The notes beneath the pieces were generated by a model. That model was not told the DNA's origin and did no database searches. It saw nothing but the letters and a program-made list of their open reading frames with translations. A stretch of DNA of 41,935 nt, taken from assembly GCA_002070045.1 (NCBI GenBank), contig MWCN01000036.1, positions 1 through 41,935 on the forward strand. Direction: 5' to 3'. The position numbers and the translations under genes were made by a program. Below, piece after piece: positions 5,550 through 21,961 of this stretch (positions within the stretch are counted from its first letter, which is position 1; every line of letters starts with the position of its first letter). This DNA is from Candidatus Cloacimonetes bacterium ADurb.Bin211 (GTDB lineage Bacteria; Cloacimonadota; Cloacimonadia; Cloacimonadales; Cloacimonadaceae).

Positions 5550-7028
5550 ATGAAAATAGACTTGTTGCACAAGCCAACTGAATATATGGAAACAGTGATT
5601 ATCCTCCAGGAAGAAAATGGAGATATAGATAAGCTGGAATATCTTCCTGAATACCTTCAGAATGCCATCAATATAGTAGTAAAGCAAGATGATTTCCATT
5701 TCAAATATGGCAGCCTCAAGAGTTTTCCCTTTATTCGTTCCCGAAAACGAACAAATATTATCCTTTGCGGAATAGGCAATCCTAAGGAACTGGATAATGA
5801 TCGTTTCCGTAATCTCATTGCTATCTCAGTTCGTGAAGCCATCAAAATAGAAGCAAAAGAAGCTTATCTTTTCACCGGTTTTAAAAATCCCCTAAGTGAA
5901 CTCCATTTTGGCCATATGCTTGCCGAAGCTGCTTTGCTTACTGAGTACCGTTTTAATAAATATCTTAGTGAACCAAAATCTTCTTCTCTGCAAGCTATTC
6001 ATTTAGCTATGGACTTTAAGAATCCACATATGTTCAATCGTGGTGTTCTGGAAGGAAGAATCTTTGCTGAAGCAACAAATCTTGCTCGTGACCTGGTTAA
6101 TGAACCTGCTAATGTCATCTATCCTGAATCTTTAGCTGAAGTAGCTAAAAAAGTCGCTCTTAAATATGGCTTTTCCATTGAAGTTTTTGGATTAGATAAA
6201 ATTAAAAGGCTCAAAATGGAAGCCTTTCTGGCAGTAGGGAAGGGTTCTAAAAAAGAACCTCGTCTGATTCTGATGTCCTATCGTGGAAATCCCGATCCTA
6301 AAGCTAATACTATCGGTCTCATTGGTAAAGGTTTAACCTATGATAGCGGTGGTTATTGCCTAAAAAATTGTCAGGGTATGGTTAATATGAAAAATGATAT
6401 GAGTGGAGCTGCTGCAGTTATCGGTACTATGGCTGCTATCACCAATTTAAAACTCAAAGTTAATGTGCTTGGAATTGTTGCCGCCTGTGAAAATATGATT
6501 TCTGGCTCTGCTTATCATGCTGGAGATATCATTCGCAGTATGTCTGGAAAAACTATTGAAGTAGTTAATACTGATGCCGAAGGTCGGCTAACTCTCATTG
6601 ACGCAATCCATTATGCTATCAGTAGAGAACATATAGATGAAGTTATAGATATCGCCACTTTAACTGGCGCTGCGGCTTCTACTTTCGGAAATCAAATTTC
6701 TGCTGTCCTAACAAATAATGGAGCTTTACTCAATAAAATACAATCAGCTTCTGAATTTTCTGGTGAAAAAATCTGGCAACTCCCACTTTATGAACCTTAT
6801 AAGGAACTCATAACATCTGAAATTGCAGACCTTAAGAATACTGGTGGTCCTTTTGCAGGAACTATAACCTCTGCTCTTTTCTTACAGGAATTTGTAGCAG
6901 GTAAACCCTGGATTCATCTTGATATTGCCGGCACTGCTTTAAGAGATAAAGAGCAGGGCATTTATAGTTATGGTGCAACCGGTGTGGGTGTGAGACTACT
7001 CACTCAATTGCTTCGAGAACTGGAATGA
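5550..7028 (+). CDS. pepA: Leucyl aminopeptidase, M17 family
   Basis: This cytoplasmic two-metal aminopeptidase removes N-terminal residues from peptides. The 492-residue length is typical of the family. The catalytic C-terminal half is complete: GKGLTYDSGG (Lys260, Asp265), Lys272, MKNDMSGAA (Asp283), and the signature NTDAEGRL (Asp342, Glu344, Arg346). The N-terminal third is diverged, as usual in M17. The start is set by a strong TAGGAGA Shine-Dalgarno sequence 6 bases before the ATG. Its stop overlaps the znuA start by ATGA, so the metal importer and this metal-dependent peptidase are translationally coupled, perhaps supplying the Zn or Mn the enzyme needs (inference). The family is certain; the preferred residue specificity is not. 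Confidence 0.95.
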   Translation: MKIDLLHKPTEYMETVIILQEENGDIDKLEYLPEYLQNAINIVVKQDDFHFKYGSLKSFPFIRSRKRTNIILCGIGNPKELDNDRFRNLIAISVREAIKIEAKEAYLFTGFKNPLSELHFGHMLAEAALLTEYRFNKYLSEPKSSSLQAIHLAMDFKNPHMFNRGVLEGRIFAEATNLARDLVNEPANVIYPESLAEVAKKVALKYGFSIEVFGLDKIKRLKMEAFLAVGKGSKKEPRLILMSYRGNPDPKANTIGLIGKGLTYDSGGYCLKNCQGMVNMKNDMSGAAAVIGTMAAITNLKLKVNVLGIVAACENMISGSAYHAGDIIRSMSGKTIEVVNTDAEGRLTLIDAIHYAISREHIDEVIDIATLTGAAASTFGNQISAVLTNNGALLNKIQSASEFSGEKIWQLPLYEPYKELITSEIADLKNTGGPFAGTITSALFLQEFVAGKPWIHLDIAGTALRDKEQGIYSYGATGVGVRLLTQLLRELE

Positions 7029-7901: not shown

Positions 7902-8630
7902 ATGATAGAAATTTGCAGTCTTTCCTATAACATTAATAGAAATATTATCTTAGAAGACATAAACTTAACCTTAACTGACGGTGAATTTGCTGCTTTAATT
8001 GGTCCCAATGGTGCAGGCAAATCAACTCTCATAAAATTGATTCTAGGATTTTTACCCCTTCAAACAGGTGCTATATATATTGAGGGAATCCCGCATCTGG
8101 AATGGCTAAAAGAACATTCTATTGGATATCTTCCTCAGCATGAAGAATTTAATCGTAATTTCCCTGCCACTGCTATGGAGATAGTGCTTATGGGATTAGT
8201 TAGAGAATTACATCCTGGCTCAAGATTTAAATCCATTCATCGTCAAAGAGCTATGCAAGCTTTAACTCTTACCGGAATTGCCCATCTGGCTAATCATCAG
8301 TTAGGTTCACTGTCTGGAGGTGAATTGCAACGTGTGTTTCTGGCAAGAGCTCTGGTCTCTGATAGTAAATATTTAATTCTGGATGAACCAGAAGCATCAC
8401 TGGATCAACCTGGTGTTAAAAGTCTGTTTATCCTTTTGAAAGACTTGAATAAAGCAGGAAAGACAATTTTAACTATCTCTCATGACCTCAATATCCTTTC
8501 CGAATATTGCAGCTTTCTCATTTGCCTGAACAGAAGATTGCATTGCCACACCAGTGCTGAACTGGTTAATGCCGAAATCATTCATAAAACCTTTGGAGAC
8601 ACTGTACGCCTGATTGAAAAGGACTATTGA
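7902..8630 (+). CDS. znuC: Zinc/manganese ABC transporter ATP-binding protein
   Basis: The 242-residue ATPase has all core motifs: Walker A GPNGAGKST (about residues 35-43), Q-loop LPQHEEFNR, signature LSGGELQRVFLARAL, Walker B YLILDEPEASLD, and switch His in TISHDLN. It powers the import of metal delivered by the upstream lipoprotein. No good Shine-Dalgarno sequence precedes the ATG; translation may rely on coupling with znuA 19 bases upstream. It overlaps the permease gene by one base (TGATG). Confidence 0.93.
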   Translation: MIEICSLSYNINRNIILEDINLTLTDGEFAALIGPNGAGKSTLIKLILGFLPLQTGAIYIEGIPHLEWLKEHSIGYLPQHEEFNRNFPATAMEIVLMGLVRELHPGSRFKSIHRQRAMQALTLTGIAHLANHQLGSLSGGELQRVFLARALVSDSKYLILDEPEASLDQPGVKSLFILLKDLNKAGKTILTISHDLNILSEYCSFLICLNRRLHCHTSAELVNAEIIHKTFGDTVRLIEKDY

Positions 8631-14092: not shown

Positions 14093-16393
14093 ATGCAGAA
14101 AAGATATTTCCTTTTAATGTTATTATTTTGCACTGCTCTGACTATAAAGATTCAGGCTTTACCTTCTTGTTATTACACTTACGATCAAATATCTCAACTA
14201 CTTTCTAATTATGAAAGTCAATACCCAGATATAGCGAAAAAAATACTCATTGGTTATTCTGAGGAAGATCATATCCCTATCTACGCTATGCGGATTACAG
14301 ATAATGTTAATCAGGATGAAGAAGAGCCAGCATTGCTCTTTGTCGGACAGGTTCACGCCGAAGAAGTGCTGGGAGTTCAGACTACGATGAGCAATATTCT
14401 GGAAATTTTAACTAATAGAAATCAACTTCCCTATATGCAATGGATAAATCAGCTGGACTTATGGTTTGTCCCTACTCTTAATCCTGAAGGACATAATGTA
14501 GTGACCTCCAATCTTGACTCATCCTATCGTAAGAATAAGAGAGACAATAATATGAATGGAACCTTTGATTTCAGTCCCCTGGTAGGATATGATATAGATG
14601 GAGTCGATATAAATAGGAATTTTGGTTTTAACTGGGTGCATGGTGACACTTTACTCCAACCTGGAGGGTTAGAAGTCTGGGATTATTATAGAGGTCCCGC
14701 TCCTATGAGTGAAAGTGAAAATCAAGCAATAAAAGAGTTAGCAGACCACTATAAATTTATATATTCTATCTGCTGGCATTCTTCTCGTACTGGCAACTTA
14801 AGTGAAAAATGTTATTACTCATTTAATTGGAAGAATGTAAGACCTTCACCTGATTTAGCCTTTTCTGCATCTATAAGCAGTGGAATAGCTTCCCACATAA
14901 TTAAAGAAACAGGAACTGGGACTTATGATGCTTTCCCCAATCTAAGTCGTCAGGGTGCATTTCATGATTGGATGTATCAACAATATGGAACCTTTCAAGC
15001 TTTAATAGAATGTGGAACCAGTAATATCCAGCCTGATTCCACTTTGATGGTAAATACGGTTCAAAGATGTAGCAATGGCGTTCGCTGGCTAATCAATAGA
15101 GCTTTACCCTCTTCTCAAGCAGTATCAAGCAGTTCTATGTTAACGGGAAAAATTAGAGATGCAATCACTAATGAACCTCTGGAAGCAGAAATAATCATTC
15201 AACAACATAATGCTCCCTGGTTCAAACCTCGTACTTCCAACCCGACGACAGGAAGATTTTATCGTCCCTTAGCTTCAGGAGTATATACGGTTCAGGTTAG
15301 AAAAAAAGGCTACTGGGATAACCTTATCCCTAATCAAATGGTACAGAATAGTAACTGGACACAAATACAAGTATATTTACAGCCACGAGAACCTGCTATT
15401 TTAAATGGAATCATCAATGCCAGCGAAAAAAATGTAAATGCTCGCATTATTATCGGGGATGTTTTCCCTGATACTCTGATGGTTAATGGCAATTTTATCT
15501 ATCATGGTTATGAAGGAGAATATCCAGTAGAAATCTATGCTGAAGGTTATTTCCCCTGGAAAGGCTCAGTTACTTTAAACCCAGGAGAAAATTATTTGAC
15601 TGTAGAACTCAGTCCTGTAAATATACTTTTCAGTGAAGACTGGGAATCTGGAATTGATAGATGGGTAATTAACGGACCCTGGGTGCAAGAAAATACTCTC
15701 TCGGTTTCAGGTTATGCCATAACAGATAGCTGGGGAGGAACTGGATTTTATGCTATGAATTGTGATGTCTGGATTAAAACTGCTCAATCTATCTATATTC
15801 CAACAGATGCTTCCACTATGCTACTCTTTGACTCTCATCTATATACGGAATACCTGTATGATCCAGCACGAGTAGAAATCTCAACGGATAATCTGAACTG
15901 GGAATCTATCTGGGAAAAATCGGGACAACTGGATTATTTCCAGAAAGAAATGGTCTTGTTAGATAGCTTTAAAGGACAGAATATTTATCTCCGATTCCAT
16001 TTAACCGATAATTCCACTGATATAGATTTAACTGACCCGGGCTGGACTATTGATAATATCCAGATTATTCAAGGAACTGCCACTCCTAACTATGACCCCA
16101 GTTTACCGTCTATCCCTCACCTAGTCCTCTATCCTTCCTATCCCAATCCCTTTAATCCTAAAACCACTATTCGCTATAGCTTAGCGGAGCTTTCAGATAT
16201 AAACTTAGCTATTTACAATGCAAAAGGACAACTGGTCCGTCAATTGGAAAAAGGCACCAAAAATGCTGGAGATTATCAGATAATCTGGGATGGACAAGAT
16301 AATAATGGTAAAGATGTTAGTAGTGGAATCTATCTCTGTGTTCTCTTGAGTGGAAAAGAAAAACAGCTTCAGAAAATGGCGTTATGCAAATAA
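14093..16393 (+). CDS. Secreted M14 zinc carboxypeptidase with FlgD-like sorting tail
   Basis: The 766-residue protein has a signal peptide (1-22), an M14 peptidase domain (about 27-337), a carboxypeptidase-regulatory-like beta domain (about 349-430), a further beta domain, an Asp/Trp-rich beta-sandwich (about 512-665) resembling MAM or immune-inhibitor modules, and a C-terminal FlgD-like Ig domain (677-766) with YPNPFNP at 683-689. Zinc ligands HAEE (His88, Glu91) and His229, substrate-binding Asn174/Arg175 and the catalytic Glu306 (ALIECGTSN) are all present, so it should be active. The tail type is common on exported proteins of Cloacimonadota and relatives and resembles type IX sorting domains. 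It likely degrades extracellular peptides. The gene ends 2 bases before a convergent stop. Confidence 0.93.
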   Translation: MQKRYFLLMLLFCTALTIKIQALPSCYYTYDQISQLLSNYESQYPDIAKKILIGYSEEDHIPIYAMRITDNVNQDEEEPALLFVGQVHAEEVLGVQTTMSNILEILTNRNQLPYMQWINQLDLWFVPTLNPEGHNVVTSNLDSSYRKNKRDNNMNGTFDFSPLVGYDIDGVDINRNFGFNWVHGDTLLQPGGLEVWDYYRGPAPMSESENQAIKELADHYKFIYSICWHSSRTGNLSEKCYYSFNWKNVRPSPDLAFSASISSGIASHIIKETGTGTYDAFPNLSRQGAFHDWMYQQYGTFQALIECGTSNIQPDSTLMVNTVQRCSNGVRWLINRALPSSQAVSSSSMLTGKIRDAITNEPLEAEIIIQQHNAPWFKPRTSNPTTGRFYRPLASGVYTVQVRKKGYWDNLIPNQMVQNSNWTQIQVYLQPREPAILNGIINASEKNVNARIIIGDVFPDTLMVNGNFIYHGYEGEYPVEIYAEGYFPWKGSVTLNPGENYLTVELSPVNILFSEDWESGIDRWVINGPWVQENTLSVSGYAITDSWGGTGFYAMNCDVWIKTAQSIYIPTDASTMLLFDSHLYTEYLYDPARVEISTDNLNWESIWEKSGQLDYFQKEMVLLDSFKGQNIYLRFHLTDNSTDIDLTDPGWTIDNIQIIQGTATPNYDPSLPSIPHLVLYPSYPNPFNPKTTIRYSLAELSDINLAIYNAKGQLVRQLEKGTKNAGDYQIIWDGQDNNGKDVSSGIYLCVLLSGKEKQLQKMALCK

Positions 16394-16395
16394 AA

Positions 16396-18429
16396 TTAAT
16401 AGGTGCGAACTAAACGAAATCCTACAAATGGATAACCTTTAGCAGGATTACCTTTAGTGCGATAAACTACACTCAAATTAGTGCCCAATCCATTATTTAC
16501 ACTGCCTCCCCGAATAACTTTTAAAGTTCCAGTTGCAGGGCCCCTGGGATTAATGAACTCGGTTAGAGAAGTGGGATATTCTTCTGAATACCAATCCCAA
16601 CACCATTCTGCCACATTTCCGGTCATATCGTAAATCCCATAAGCATTAGGTTTTTTCTGATAGCCCACCGTTCTGTATCTTCTTCCGCTGTTTTCTCTAT
16701 ACCAGGCTACTTCATCTGCATCATCGGAACCGCTATAAGTATATAATTGCCCACCTTTAGCTGCCATTTCCCATTCTGCTTCGGTGGGTAAACGATAACC
16801 ATTTGCCTTAAAATTACAGGTAACTGAACTGGCAGTGTTTCCTAAAATAGTATAAGCAGCCGTTAGACCTTCCGCTTCACTACGAGCATTGCAATAGCGA
16901 ACAATATTCATCCAGCTAACATTATCAACTGGTAAGTTATCACCTACAAAACTTACATTAGCTGGTTTCATATATTGATTCCACTCTTTTTGAGTGACCT
17001 CGTATTTCCCCATATAAAAACCATTTTGCACAACATTATGATTGGGATTCTCCTTTAATCGGGTAAAACCAAAAGTGCCATCAGAAATATGTACAAAAAG
17101 GGTCCTATCGGGTGAAGTATCAATTTTAACCGAACCAGAAGAACCTGAATATGAAGATTGATTTTGAGATAACATAGCCTTACGTGGGTCTACTCGTGTA
17201 TCAACTGAACTATCTTTTCGGCTTTTCAGGCTATCTCTATGATTAAAAATAGAATTATCCTGATACTCGCCATTGATGGTATCTTCTTCATCAATAGAAG
17301 AAACCCAGGTGCTGGGAGTACCATTATCTTTCGTTATATTAGACCAGTTTAAAACAAAGAAGATAATTATTGCTGCTACTGCTATACCTACGACAGTAAA
17401 GATAATCCAATCTTTACTTATCTTTGGTTCAGGTACCTGAGTAGGTGAAATATCTTCTGCTTGCATCTTAGCGCCTGCAAGATCATATACCTCATCTTTT
17501 TCTATAGCAGGTAAGGCATTCAGTCCCTTCAGCAAATCATGCAAAGTTTTATATCTCTGCAAGATATTACGATGTAAACATTCTCCCAGGACTTTATTCA
17601 TACTTAAAGTAATGCCTGGAATGTAAGTAAACTTATGTTCCCTGAGGTTCTCATCATTATAGACAGTTTCCGCCAGTTGATTAGCAGAAAGCATCTGAGC
17701 CAGCAAAACTCCCAGATGAAATACTTCATCTCGCTCATCTGTCGCCTCATAGCTAATTCCAGAAGTCAAAATGGTGATTTTATTAGTTTCTGGATTCAGT
17801 ACTATGCTATTAAGTGTAAGGTCTTTGATACTTAATCCCAGCAGACGAATATCTATTGCAGCAGAAACAAGTTGTTTAGCGATCTCCCTCACCAGAGATT
17901 CAGTTAGCAGCGTAGGATTATAAGTTTTAATCTTTGCCAGGGACATTCCTTCCACAAATTCTGTAATAATATAGACCGGGTCATTATTGTAATTGATTTC
18001 TTCTATATTAACTATATGTGGATGCTGGAGTTTTTGCACTCTATCCAGCCAGTTTTGAAGGGTAATGATATTTTCTAAATTGGAGTATTTATAAGGGAAA
18101 AAAAGTTTCAGGACATAATATTTCCCTTCTTTTTCCACCAGATAGCGTATCCCATCGGTATCCTTTCCTTGAAGTTTGATGACCTTGTAATTATTGAAAG
18201 ATGCTCCAGGTTCCATAGTCTGATAAGCAACAAAAGACATATCATCACTTTCTGATTCGCGTTTAATAACCTTTTTCTGTTCATGAATCTTAGGTTCCGA
18301 TGAAGGATGTTCTTTCCAATCTTCAATTTTTTGCCCACAGTAAATACAGAACTTAGCATTAATCGGAATTTGCTTTCCGCAATTGCTACAAAAGAGTTTA
18401 TTCATCCCACCGTTTTGCCCTTCATTCAT
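16396..18429 (-). CDS. Zinc-ribbon / pseudokinase / transmembrane / FGE-sulfatase-like fusion
   Basis: The 677-residue protein reads as four parts. A zinc ribbon has CxxC pairs at 14/17 and 28/31. A protein-kinase-like domain (about 80-305) keeps Lys108 and the catalytic-loop Asp203 (IKDLTLNSIVL), but the metal-binding Asn is Ser208 and DFG is TSG (222-224), so it is probably a pseudokinase. One membrane helix spans 341-360, followed by a Ser/Asp-rich linker. Residues about 450-677 form a formylglycine-generating-enzyme-like domain (YRLPTEAEWEMAAKGG, MTGNVAEWCWDWY, VIRGGSVNN) that lacks the C-terminal catalytic Cys pair, suggesting a binding module. The start overlaps the ileS stop by ATGA; GGTGG supports it, with Met9 as alternative. 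Likely a cytoplasm-to-periplasm sensor or scaffold (inference). Confidence 0.85.
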   Translation of the reverse strand: MNEGQNGGMNKLFCSNCGKQIPINAKFCIYCGQKIEDWKEHPSSEPKIHEQKKVIKRESESDDMSFVAYQTMEPGASFNNYKVIKLQGKDTDGIRYLVEKEGKYYVLKLFFPYKYSNLENIITLQNWLDRVQKLQHPHIVNIEEINYNNDPVYIITEFVEGMSLAKIKTYNPTLLTESLVREIAKQLVSAAIDIRLLGLSIKDLTLNSIVLNPETNKITILTSGISYEATDERDEVFHLGVLLAQMLSANQLAETVYNDENLREHKFTYIPGITLSMNKVLGECLHRNILQRYKTLHDLLKGLNALPAIEKDEVYDLAGAKMQAEDISPTQVPEPKISKDWIIFTVVGIAVAAIIIFFVLNWSNITKDNGTPSTWVSSIDEEDTINGEYQDNSIFNHRDSLKSRKDSSVDTRVDPRKAMLSQNQSSYSGSSGSVKIDTSPDRTLFVHISDGTFGFTRLKENPNHNVVQNGFYMGKYEVTQKEWNQYMKPANVSFVGDNLPVDNVSWMNIVRYCNARSEAEGLTAAYTILGNTASSVTCNFKANGYRLPTEAEWEMAAKGGQLYTYSGSDDADEVAWYRENSGRRYRTVGYQKKPNAYGIYDMTGNVAEWCWDWYSEEYPTSLTEFINPRGPATGTLKVIRGGSVNNGLGTNLSVVYRTKGNPAKGYPFVGFRLVRTY

Positions 18430-21400
18430 TTATTATCCACCTTATATATCTTTATATAAACTTCTTTCCCGTTTATATCATAAACTGGCATATCCTGATG
18501 GGAATTAACCCTTCTTAATTCATCAGATAGAGTTTCCCTCATAATGTAGTCTTTATATTTATCTATAGCAGCTTGAATATCATCATCACCATACCATTCT
18601 ATAACAATTCTATCCAGGATATCAAAATTCTGCTCTTTTCTGGTATATTGAATCTTATTAACCAATTCCCTGGCATATCCTTCCTGCAGCAAATTAGGAG
18701 TTAAAGTAGTATCCAGAGCTACAAATTTATCATTCATACTTTCAAAGACAAAGCCTTCCCTGGGGATAATTTGCACTACCACATCCTCAGGAACAAGGTC
18801 AATTCCCAAATCGCTAAGATGAAATACTCCAGAAGAATGAAAGGCAGAAAGCACTTCCTTACCTTTGAGTTTACTGAGAACCTCCGTTATCGCTTTCATT
18901 TGCTTTCCATATTTAGGACCCATAATCTTGAATTGAGGTTTAACCTCATATTGCACAAAGTCATCCTCTTCAGATACATAGACTAGACTATGAATATTAA
19001 CTTCTTCCAGAATAAGGTCCCGCATAGTTTCTATTATATCTTTATATTTAGCAGGGACATACATCTTTTCAAGAGGCTGACGAATTTTTATCTGGCAAGC
19101 ATTCCTTGCTGCTCTGCCTAAGGAAACCAGATCAATCACTACCTGCATTCTATTTTCCAGCTCCGAATCAATAAGCTTCGGATTAGAAAGAGGATAATCT
19201 GTTAGATGAACACTTTCCTTTCCTGTTAGATTAATATAAAGTTCATCAGAAAGATAAGGTGCAAAGGGAGCAACTAATTGAGCAACAGTTATTAATACCT
19301 GATAAAGAGTGTTATAAGCATCAATTTTATCTGAAGTCATACCTTTTGCCCAGAATCTTCTCCTGCTCCTGCGAACATACCAATTGGAAAGTTCATCTAT
19401 AACATAATCCTGGAGAGCACGAACTGCTCTGGTCAATTCATATTCTTCCATCCAGTCACTTACTTTCTTAATAAGGCTATGCAGACGAGAAATAATCCAT
19501 CGATCCAGTTCAGCTGTTTTTTGCCAATCAAGAGAGTATAATGATGCATCATATCCATCAATATTGGCATAGGTAGCAAAGAAGGAATAGGTGTTCTTCA
19601 AAGTACCGATGAACTTACCAACAATCTCTCTAACTCCATCTACATCAAAACGTGTGGGAACCCAGGGAGGACTAACTTCCAGAAGATACCAGCGAATAGC
19701 ATCAGCTCCATACTCTTGCATCAATTCAATAGGGTCAACTGCATTTCCTTTGGACTTGCTCATTTTTTGTCCATTTTTATCCAAAATCATCTCATTCACC
19801 AGACAACTTTTATAACTGGAAACCCCTTTAAATAAGGTTGAGATGGCAAGCAGAGAATAAAACCATCCACGAGTCTGATCTATTCCTTCCGAGATAAAAT
19901 CTGCTGGAAATAGCTCTTTATCAAAGAGGTCAGCATTTTCAAAGGGATAATGCCATTGAGCAAAAGGCATAGAACCACTATCAAACCAGCAATCTATCAC
20001 TTCAGGAGTGCGAATCATTATTCCACCACAATCTTCACATTTTAGCACTACTTCATCAATATAAGGACGATGTAGCTCCAGGTTTTCTGGCACAGGTAAG
20101 CCAGTTTTTAAATTTCCCTTATCTCTCAGTTCTTGAATAGAGCCTATAGATGTCCTTGCTCCACAATCATTACAAATCCATATATTTAAAGGAGTGCCCC
20201 AAAATCTATCCCGGGAAAGAGCCCAATCAACATTATTTTCCAGCCATTCACCAAAGCGTTTTTCTCCTACAAAAGGTGGATACCAGCTAATTTGTCTGTT
20301 ATTTTCTAATAACTGTTCCTTGAAATCTGAGGTGCGAATATACCAGGTGTCTCTTGCATAATAGATGAGAGGACTTTGACAACGCCAGCAATGAGGATAA
20401 CTATGCTTAACCTGTTCTCTTTTATAGAGATGTCCCCCTTCTTTCAGAAAACGAATGATATCCTTATCGGCAGTTTTAACAAATATTCCTGCCCAGGGCT
20501 CTACCTGAGCAGTAAATTTCCCTTCCGCATCAACTGGTTGAACAAAAGGAAGGTCATATTTTTTTCCTAATTGATAGTCATCCTGTCCAAATGCTGGTGC
20601 TGTGTGAACAATTCCTGTTCCTTCTTCCATTGAAACATAATCCGCTAACCCTATATACCAGGCAGGTTTATCTACTGGAACAAAGTTAAACAAGGGCTGA
20701 TATTTTTTATATTCTAACTCTCGTCCGAAAAACTCATTTATAATTTCATATTCTCCATCCAGTACATCTAAACGCTCTTTTGCCAGGATATAATATTCAC
20801 CCTTATGAAACACTTTAACATAAATAAAATCGGGATGAACAGCCAGAGCCACATTAGAAATCAAAGTCCAGGGTGTAGTAGTCCAGGCAAGATACCAGGT
20901 ATTCTCTTCTTCCAGAGCTTTAAATTTGATATAGATGGAGGGGTCTTCCACATCTTTATAGCCCTGAGCTACTTCGTGAGAAGAAAGAGGAGTGCCACAA
21001 CTTGGACAATAAGGGACAATTTTATGAGCTTTATAGAGTAAATCCCTTTTAAAAAAATCGTTCAAAATATACCAAACAGATTCTATATATTCATTATGCA
21101 TAGTGACATAGGGATGTTCCAGGTCAATCCAATAACCCATCAATTCTGTCATTTGAGTCCAGAGGTCTAAATAATTCCATACAGACTCTTTACAAGCCTG
21201 ACAGAACTTTTCTATGCCATAATCTTCAATAGCTTTCTTGCTTTCCAATCCGAGTTGTTTTTCCACTTCAATCTCTACTGGTAAACCATGAGTGTCCCAT
21301 CCTGCTTTTCTCTTTACTTGAAAACCAGTCATAGTTTTGTAACGGCAGACCACATCCTTTAAGGTTCTTGCCATCACATGATGGATTCCAGGAGTTCCAT

Positions 21401-21551
21401 TAGCAGTGGGTGGTCCTTCATAGAAGATGAAATTAGGAGCACCTTCCCGGAAAGCTACACTTTTATGTAATAAATTATGCTGTTTCCAGTATTGACGGAT
21501 GCTTTCCTCTAAGTCCTGAGGAGTTGCTTTTAAATCTATATTTTTATACAT
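18426..21551 (-). CDS. ileS: Isoleucyl-tRNA synthetase, type 2 (eukaryote-like)
   Basis: This enzyme charges tRNA-Ile with isoleucine. The 1041-residue length and segments PPTANGTPGIHHVMART (HIGH-motif region, near residue 50), GWDTHGLPVEIEVEKQLG, the editing-domain TTTPWTL and KMSKSKGN (596-603) mark the IleS2 subclass, which is often naturally mupirocin-resistant. Two zinc-binding Cys clusters are visible (CPSCG near 182, CNDCG and CEDCGG near 460-510). A TATAAT lies six bases before the ATG and no normally spaced Shine-Dalgarno sequence is present, so the mRNA may be leaderless. The gene is followed, with a 4-base overlap, by the pseudokinase fusion. Confidence 0.97.
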   Translation of the reverse strand: MYKNIDLKATPQDLEESIRQYWKQHNLLHKSVAFREGAPNFIFYEGPPTANGTPGIHHVMARTLKDVVCRYKTMTGFQVKRKAGWDTHGLPVEIEVEKQLGLESKKAIEDYGIEKFCQACKESVWNYLDLWTQMTELMGYWIDLEHPYVTMHNEYIESVWYILNDFFKRDLLYKAHKIVPYCPSCGTPLSSHEVAQGYKDVEDPSIYIKFKALEEENTWYLAWTTTPWTLISNVALAVHPDFIYVKVFHKGEYYILAKERLDVLDGEYEIINEFFGRELEYKKYQPLFNFVPVDKPAWYIGLADYVSMEEGTGIVHTAPAFGQDDYQLGKKYDLPFVQPVDAEGKFTAQVEPWAGIFVKTADKDIIRFLKEGGHLYKREQVKHSYPHCWRCQSPLIYYARDTWYIRTSDFKEQLLENNRQISWYPPFVGEKRFGEWLENNVDWALSRDRFWGTPLNIWICNDCGARTSIGSIQELRDKGNLKTGLPVPENLELHRPYIDEVVLKCEDCGGIMIRTPEVIDCWFDSGSMPFAQWHYPFENADLFDKELFPADFISEGIDQTRGWFYSLLAISTLFKGVSSYKSCLVNEMILDKNGQKMSKSKGNAVDPIELMQEYGADAIRWYLLEVSPPWVPTRFDVDGVREIVGKFIGTLKNTYSFFATYANIDGYDASLYSLDWQKTAELDRWIISRLHSLIKKVSDWMEEYELTRAVRALQDYVIDELSNWYVRRSRRRFWAKGMTSDKIDAYNTLYQVLITVAQLVAPFAPYLSDELYINLTGKESVHLTDYPLSNPKLIDSELENRMQVVIDLVSLGRAARNACQIKIRQPLEKMYVPAKYKDIIETMRDLILEEVNIHSLVYVSEEDDFVQYEVKPQFKIMGPKYGKQMKAITEVLSKLKGKEVLSAFHSSGVFHLSDLGIDLVPEDVVVQIIPREGFVFESMNDKFVALDTTLTPNLLQEGYARELVNKIQYTRKEQNFDILDRIVIEWYGDDDIQAAIDKYKDYIMRETLSDELRRVNSHQDMPVYDINGKEVYIKIYKVDNK

Positions 21552-21595: not shown

Positions 21596-21961
21596 TTAAC
21601 CAATCTTTTTAGTCCGTCCAAACTTTTTCTGCCCTGGAACAAAGGTTTTCTTAACCTGAGATTGAGCAGGTTTCTTGGTATGCACAACAGGAATAGTAGA
21701 TTCAGGTTCTTCCTCTTCCACGGGTTTTTCTTCAAATAATTCGCTAAAATGCTCTTTTAAATCTTCATGTTCAGAAACATAGGTTTTCCATTCTTCCAGA
21801 GCAGCATCGCGGTCCACACAATGAGGACAGAGCACTAACAGATTTTGCTCATTTATGCCAATCCATCCACGACCATAGCAATGGTCACAATTTTTTTTGC
21901 GACGATGTTTTTGAGCAATCTCCTGTGCCACTTCTAAATGTTCATCTGCAAGCTTAAACAT
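21596..21961 (-). CDS. Small protein with DnaJ-type CxxCxGxG zinc motif
   Basis: I do not recognise a named family. The 121-residue product has four cysteines in two pairs, CDHCYGRGW (Cys25, Cys28) and CPHC (Cys45, Cys48), a spacing like half of the DnaJ central zinc finger, so one zinc site is likely. The N-terminal 20 residues are helical and charged. The second half is disordered, with a run of Glu/Pro (EEKPVEEEEPES) followed by a basic tail (VKKTFVPGQKKFGRTKK). A good Shine-Dalgarno sequence (AAGGAGAG) precedes the ATG. It lies between another small Cys-containing gene and ileS on the same strand. The acidic-then-basic tail could bind nucleic acid or ribosomes (inference only). Confidence 0.7.
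   Translation of the reverse strand: MFKLADEHLEVAQEIAQKHRRKKNCDHCYGRGWIGINEQNLLVLCPHCVDRDAALEEWKTYVSEHEDLKEHFSELFEEKPVEEEEPESTIPVVHTKKPAQSQVKKTFVPGQKKFGRTKKIG

Follow-up and report, generated by a model that had tools for sequence, protein, structure and literature searches.

The open reading frame at 16396-18429 on the reverse strand of the window (the whole 41,935-nucleotide stretch of DNA analysed here) encodes a bacterial Ser/Thr pseudokinase, here called PK1, that has a kinase fold, has lost its catalytic motifs and is conserved within its clade, making it a fixed trait of the window's GTDB family. The protein, which is 677 aa long with an ATG start in the ORF list of the window, is laid out from N to C terminus as a zinc ribbon, a kinase fold, one membrane helix and a cysteine-free domain resembling formylglycine-generating enzyme (FGE). 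With the kinase machinery lost and the outer domain without active cysteines, PK1 therefore probably works by binding and not by chemistry. We regard it as fairly probable that PK1 derives from a receptor-type Ser/Thr kinase and now serves as a scaffold, which would bind its partners without phosphorylating them. The features are, all on the reverse strand:

16396..18429, reverse: whole PK1 gene (zinc ribbon, pseudokinase, TM helix and FGE-like domain, 677 aa), from the ORF and Pfam
18437..18443, reverse: Shine-Dalgarno-like AAGGTGG, 7 nt before the PK1 ATG and within the end of ileS, from reading of the sequence
18426..18429, reverse: ATGA overlap of the PK1 start and the ileS stop, from the sequence
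18328..18393, reverse: zinc ribbon, residues 13-34, with Cys 14, 17, 28 and 31, from Pfam and the alignment
17500..18219, reverse: pseudokinase domain, residues about 71-310, from Pfam, the AlphaFold model and the PknB-type match
18106..18108, reverse: beta3 Lys108, from the alignment
17821..17823, reverse: HRD-site residue Asp203, from the alignment
17758..17766, reverse: TSG (222-224) at the DFG site, with the activation segment and APE missing beyond it, from the alignment
17350..17406, reverse: single membrane helix, residues about 342-360, from hydrophobicity and the model
16399..17109, reverse: FGE-like domain (C-type-lectin fold), residues about 441-677, lacking the cysteine pair of FGE, from Pfam and solved relatives
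18426..21551, reverse: ileS, co-directional neighbour upstream of PK1, from the ORF, Pfam and synteny

Pfam places Zn_Ribbon_1 at residues 13-34 (33.5 bits), in line with the initial annotation, which had a zinc ribbon leading the protein, and the four cysteines are kept in all 43 aligned rows reaching that far. Pkinase is matched at residues 99-229 (38.9 bits versus a cut-off of 31.7) and FGE-sulfatase (PF03781) at residues 451-675 (132 bits).

The window contig belongs to a 1.40 Mb genome that is 72% complete. Searching 124 Cloacimonadota genomes with a profile that spans the zinc ribbon and the kinase, we observe PK1 in 45 of the 49 genomes of the window's GTDB family, 44 of them with strong matches (E <= about 1e-40) and the 45th (G045) with a fragment at a contig start. 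The family genomes without PK1 are G007, G010, G012 (ileS also not found) and G038 (contig ends inside ileS). Beyond the family, the same search yields only weaker kinase matches, and no PK1 relative was found in the viral contigs searched. Named PK1 relatives in the genome collection are Cloacimonadota at 27 of 27 confirmed loci. The nearest relative, at 84% over the N-terminal part, is that of Candidatus Syntrophosphaera thermopropionivorans, a member of a Cloacimonadota genus. PK1 adds a clade-wide, single-locus family of membrane pseudokinases with an FGE-like outer domain to the few bacterial pseudokinases that have been studied, and does so from a group of little-studied anaerobic bacteria. 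In the parts available to us of the literature on pseudokinases and kinases with FGE, IleS or Cloacimonadota, we found no account of this family.

Kinase fold and loss of catalysis

The kinase part of PK1 has the bilobal protein-kinase fold, supported by its AlphaFold model (pLDDT about 68-96 as 10-residue means across residues 71-310) and by PknB-type matches, with Staphylococcus aureus PknB matching structurally over 237 aligned residues (Z 22.8, rmsd 2.9). Profile matches to solved kinases stop near the DFG site. The residues first read from the window protein are confirmed, namely Lys108, Asp203, Ser208 at the metal-binding Asn site and T222-S223-G224 at the DFG site.

Across an alignment of 45 rows from 44 genomes, the beta3 Lys (VAIK) is kept in 41/45 rows, and the claim that PK1 keeps Lys108 therefore holds. 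The same claim for Asp203 does not extend beyond the window protein, since an HRD Asp is present in only 5 of 44 rows. Ser for Asn and TSG for DFG turn out to reflect a family-wide degeneration, with the catalytic-loop Asn present in 5/44 rows (31 have Gly there) and the DFG-site Asp in 0/44. The initial list of losses was correct and incomplete, having missed those of the alphaC Glu and the activation segment. No Glu is found at positions 125-128 in the 45 rows (site placed by eye), and the activation segment is about 28 residues short and lacks APE; the DFG-site Gly is separated from the alphaF acidic residue by 11 residues in PK1, and by 39 in a kinase-FGE protein from the same family that looks active (counts made by eye). 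The glycine loop is also degenerate in the alignment.

Purifying selection maintains the kinase domain of PK1. Pairwise omega values for three genes, that of the window and the two closest to it, are 0.12-0.15 for the kinase part and 0.05-0.07 for the FGE-like part (overall about 0.14), and mean pairwise identity among the relatives is 47% and 64% for these parts, respectively. The family-wide motif loss, taken together with the omega of the kinase part, indicates that PK1 is an old, maintained pseudokinase. In the alignment, where E232, R233 and R292 are invariant (44/44 rows), PK1 conserves surfaces other than the catalytic sites.

Given the conservation of Lys108, PK1 may still bind ATP, so that some atypical catalysis is conceivable, and a kinase fold with an atypical ATP-dependent activity, as in SelO or SidJ, would also be compatible with the strong purifying selection. 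However, neither the DFG site nor the catalytic loop has a conserved metal-binding residue, and both the glycine loop and the activation segment have degenerated, so that we consider such an activity unlikely. If PK1 is a scaffold, it probably keeps the beta3 Lys for a structural role or for non-catalytic binding.

A role in defence was rejected, as the PADLOC matches are to generic models of kinases (at most 52 bits for the window protein) and NCBIfam MAD6 gives 47 bits against a cut-off of 460.

The ileS neighbourhood and a second family behind hutI

We observe ileS directly upstream of PK1 and on the same strand in 43/43 genomes with sequence upstream of PK1, with 8 to 132 bases between its stop and the codon of the first zinc-ribbon Cys. 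Two further rows, G033 and a second copy in G050, begin at the edge of a contig and are uninformative on the upstream gene. The neighbourhood survey that had been suggested to examine the ileS link thus finds it conserved. Neither of the two contrary outcomes named by the initial annotation, a normal Asn and DFG placed elsewhere or the lack of a conserved ileS neighbourhood, was found, since the catalytic loss is family-wide and ileS is kept in place throughout. In the window, ileS ends at 18426 and therefore overlaps PK1 by the 4 bases already reported (ATGA). This overlap had been described as odd and is in fact ordinary, with two further 4-base overlaps in the window (7025-7028 and 8627-8630). 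From this position, ileS would supply PK1 with co-expression and translational coupling.

As controls, other adjacent genes of the window were followed in 20 family genomes from beyond the genus. The dapB-dapF pair is adjacent at 20/20 loci, M20 peptidase-dapB in 18/18 testable, ZnuA-ABC in 19/19 and M17 peptidase-ZnuA in 16/19. These pairs are about as conserved as the PK1 pair, indicating that operon order is well kept in this family and that the ileS link is not exceptional. Among 13 genomes of other families, the region downstream of ileS is visible in 11, with different genes there; G019 and G025 end too soon to show it.

A second family with a pseudokinase, a membrane helix and an FGE-like domain (PK2) occurs in the window's own genome (G000:C61:3597-5387(-), L110) and also at L202:7789-10965. 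In the 23 genomes examined, Gly replaces the DFG Asp (GFG) in all and the HRD Asp is present in none, with the beta3 Lys kept in 22/22 that have a readable start (all rows read by eye). Directly upstream of PK2 is hutI, in 22/22 genomes with upstream sequence (TIGR01224, 462 bits versus a cut-off of 298 at the one locus tested).

These neighbourhoods bear on the idea that PK1 senses an envelope or nutrient cue and is coupled to ileS because it acts on IleS or on amino-acid supply. The invariable position behind ileS would fit such a regulator, as would the placement of PK2 behind hutI, another amino-acid gene, and the ileS overlap and the good ribosome-binding site point to coupled translation. 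On the other hand, the control pairs are kept about as strictly, and in the 11 genomes of other families ileS has different neighbours. The link with translation or amino-acid status first proposed for PK1 is accordingly unsupported beyond co-expression, and PK2, which has the same layout, adjoins hutI and not a tRNA synthetase gene. The ileS link is weak evidence for a role in translation; a role of PK1 with IleS is possible but does not follow from the synteny, and the full sensing-and-regulation explanation seems improbable to us.

The well-kept gene order of the family could also be read as favouring a mere operon passenger, a decaying kinase gene retained through its linkage to ileS. This is disfavoured by selection, given the low overall omega, the presence of PK1 in nearly all family genomes and the identity kept in both of its parts, and we hold it to be highly improbable.

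We further observe that the IleS protein (18426-21551) obtains better scores with the MupA/MupB models (1029.6 and 1025.6 bits, below their cut-off of 1900) than with TIGR00392 (976) and bears a DUF5915 C-terminus. Upstream of ileS, a gene at 21596-21961 encodes a small protein that has two CxxC pairs and matches no Pfam family. It adjoins ileS in only 20 of the PK1-bearing genomes, some contigs being too short to show it, and it also adjoins ileS elsewhere in the order, in families other than that of the window (G087, G094, G023 and G025).

Topology, the FGE-like domain and secretion-system profiles

PK1 has one hydrophobic helix, starting at about residue 342. Lys and Arg are commoner on its N-terminal side in 33/41 rows and the reverse holds in 3, with 3 of 44 rows excluded from this count for want of a clear helix. 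This charge bias favours a cytoplasmic kinase and an outside FGE-like domain. The zinc ribbon and pseudokinase would then lie in the cytoplasm, with the helix crossing the inner membrane and the cysteine-free domain placed in the periplasm. There, the FGE-like domain may bind an envelope ligand or protein, and the pseudokinase and zinc ribbon could dock cytoplasmic partners without phosphorylation.

The C-terminal domain has no Cys beyond the RGG motif, the site of the copper-binding and catalytic pair of FGE, in any of the 36 full-length relatives (36/36), which bears out the initial reading of an FGE-like domain lacking its catalytic Cys pair. With catalytic residues lost family-wide in the kinase as well, the picture of two linked domains on either side of a membrane, both probably non-catalytic, is supported. 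Among solved structures, the best relative of the domain is Treponema denticola TvpA (2y3c; 4.5e-45), and further ones are 5aoh (named CotH/CarF), FGE and PorK. TvpA is a target of a diversity-generating retroelement. Such a role was rejected for PK1, whose C-terminal region, in contrast, is conserved between species and not hypervariable. Modelled alone, the FGE-like domain folded poorly (pLDDT 53), so that its Foldseek matches are only a hint and its surface cannot be judged.

The gene convergent with PK1 (14093-16393) encodes an M14 carboxypeptidase with a FlgD_ig/Por_Secre_tail C-terminus and is kept adjacent within the genus.

The type IX secretion system (T9SS) is described as confined to Bacteroidota in published abstracts. 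The T9SS translocon SprA (TIGR04189) is over its cut-off in 8/8 family genomes (in the window's own genome at G000:C4:2512-7449). GldK is over its cut-off in 0/8, with a best score of 95.6 bits versus 350; PK2 is the best GldK match in 7/8, and in two of these eight genomes (G009 and G058) the PK1 and PK2 families are the sole finds of the GldK profile. PK1 itself scores 79.9 bits on the GldK model TIGR03525, below the cut-off of 350. GldM was found in 0/8 and 0/124 genomes, in a search that came without a positive-control match.

One explanation of this pattern would make PK1 the scaffold, in the inner membrane, of a divergent secretion machine resembling type IX, much as EssB/YukC is for type VII secretion, with its FGE-like domain replacing PorK/GldK. 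The universal SprA, the sub-threshold GldK with PK2 as its usual best match, the presence of PorK among solved relatives and the Por_Secre_tail match in the convergent neighbour would all agree with it. Against this, the GldK scores are far below the cut-off and of a size that FGE-like domains generally reach, several of these genomes are rich in such domains, no linkage with sprA is seen in the genomes, and the absence of GldM lacks its positive control. We therefore judge this explanation quite unlikely. A broader version, in which PK1 and PK2 would together anchor a divergent type IX-like machine of Cloacimonadota that keeps SprA and has unrecognisable GldK/GldM, so that pseudokinase scaffolds would have entered a second type of secretion system, strikes us as very doubtful.

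Origin and comparison with known systems

Intact-looking kinases of nearly the same layout occur in the same order. In another family of the order (G087, G091 and G094), zinc-ribbon kinases have intact H[KE]D..N, DFG and SPE motifs; two of those in G087 end in an FGE domain, one of them with a helix and PASTA domains between. The window's own family also contains kinase-FGE proteins with intact motifs (G003 and G040). The loss of catalysis in PK1 is traceable because the order retains these versions, and active-looking relatives such as the arrangement of zinc ribbon, kinase, PASTA and FGE lend support, as far as sequence motifs go, to the scaffold reading. In the kinase tree, PK1 forms one clade (100/100) whose placement is unsupported (65/33, with a long-branch warning), and PK2 forms a separate clade (100/99); the kinase and FGE trees used 12 chosen rows per family, the FGE tree being a quick tree only. 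PK1 most likely originated from a receptor kinase whose outer domain was an FGE domain. If it is indeed a scaffold, PK1 is a receptor kinase that has become a pure binding protein and is kept as such under selection.

Two other groups of kinase-like proteins were observed. A zinc-ribbon kinase-like protein of G087 (L106:5062-6510), located beside an intact-looking kinase, has EFG at the DFG site and no SPE and is probably a separate loss of catalysis. In several family genomes, giant proteins of ~1,820 aa (L144, L145, L146 and L167) carry an intact-looking kinase (H[RK]DLKLEN, DYG and APE).

PK2 shares with PK1 a dead kinase, the same GTDB family of bacteria and the same layout minus the zinc ribbon; it differs from PK1 in keeping APE and having GFG at the DFG site, besides forming its own clade. 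The PK1 outer domain is homologous to FGE/SUMF1, as its PF03781 match indicates, and departs from it in lacking the Cys pair and in being membrane-tethered. With PorK/GldK, PK1 has an FGE-like fold in common; PK1 is below the GldK cut-off and is not a lipoprotein. In fold and in sequence, the kinase part comes closest to PASTA receptor kinases of the PknB/StkP type, which share the layout of a cytoplasmic kinase, a helix and an outer sensor. In contrast to these, PK1 has lost all catalytic motifs but the Lys and has no PASTA domains. The same order also holds the zinc-ribbon kinase with PASTA and FGE domains.

A further comparison is offered by EssB/YukC of type VIIb secretion, described in the available text of PMC12599244 as a membrane pseudokinase with a degraded glycine loop and a shortened activation loop; YukC showed no ATP binding in vitro according to the part seen of PMC9600267. 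The available text of PMC12599244, which covers the pseudokinase families ActPs1-3, GLW, CP1, DYD and DLHK, mentions neither FGE nor Cloacimonadota. EssB/YukC is not among the sequence or structure matches listed for PK1, and it differs in that the PK1 outer domain is FGE-like and not helical, a zinc ribbon leads the protein and the phylum is another. As far as these two sources go, EssB/YukC resembles PK1 in having a cytoplasmic pseudokinase with degraded motifs followed by one helix and an outer domain, and its role as a non-catalytic scaffold can be likened to that proposed for PK1 (PMC12599244; PMC9600267). On this likeness in layout, which does not imply family membership, EssB/YukC would be the nearest functional analogue of PK1.
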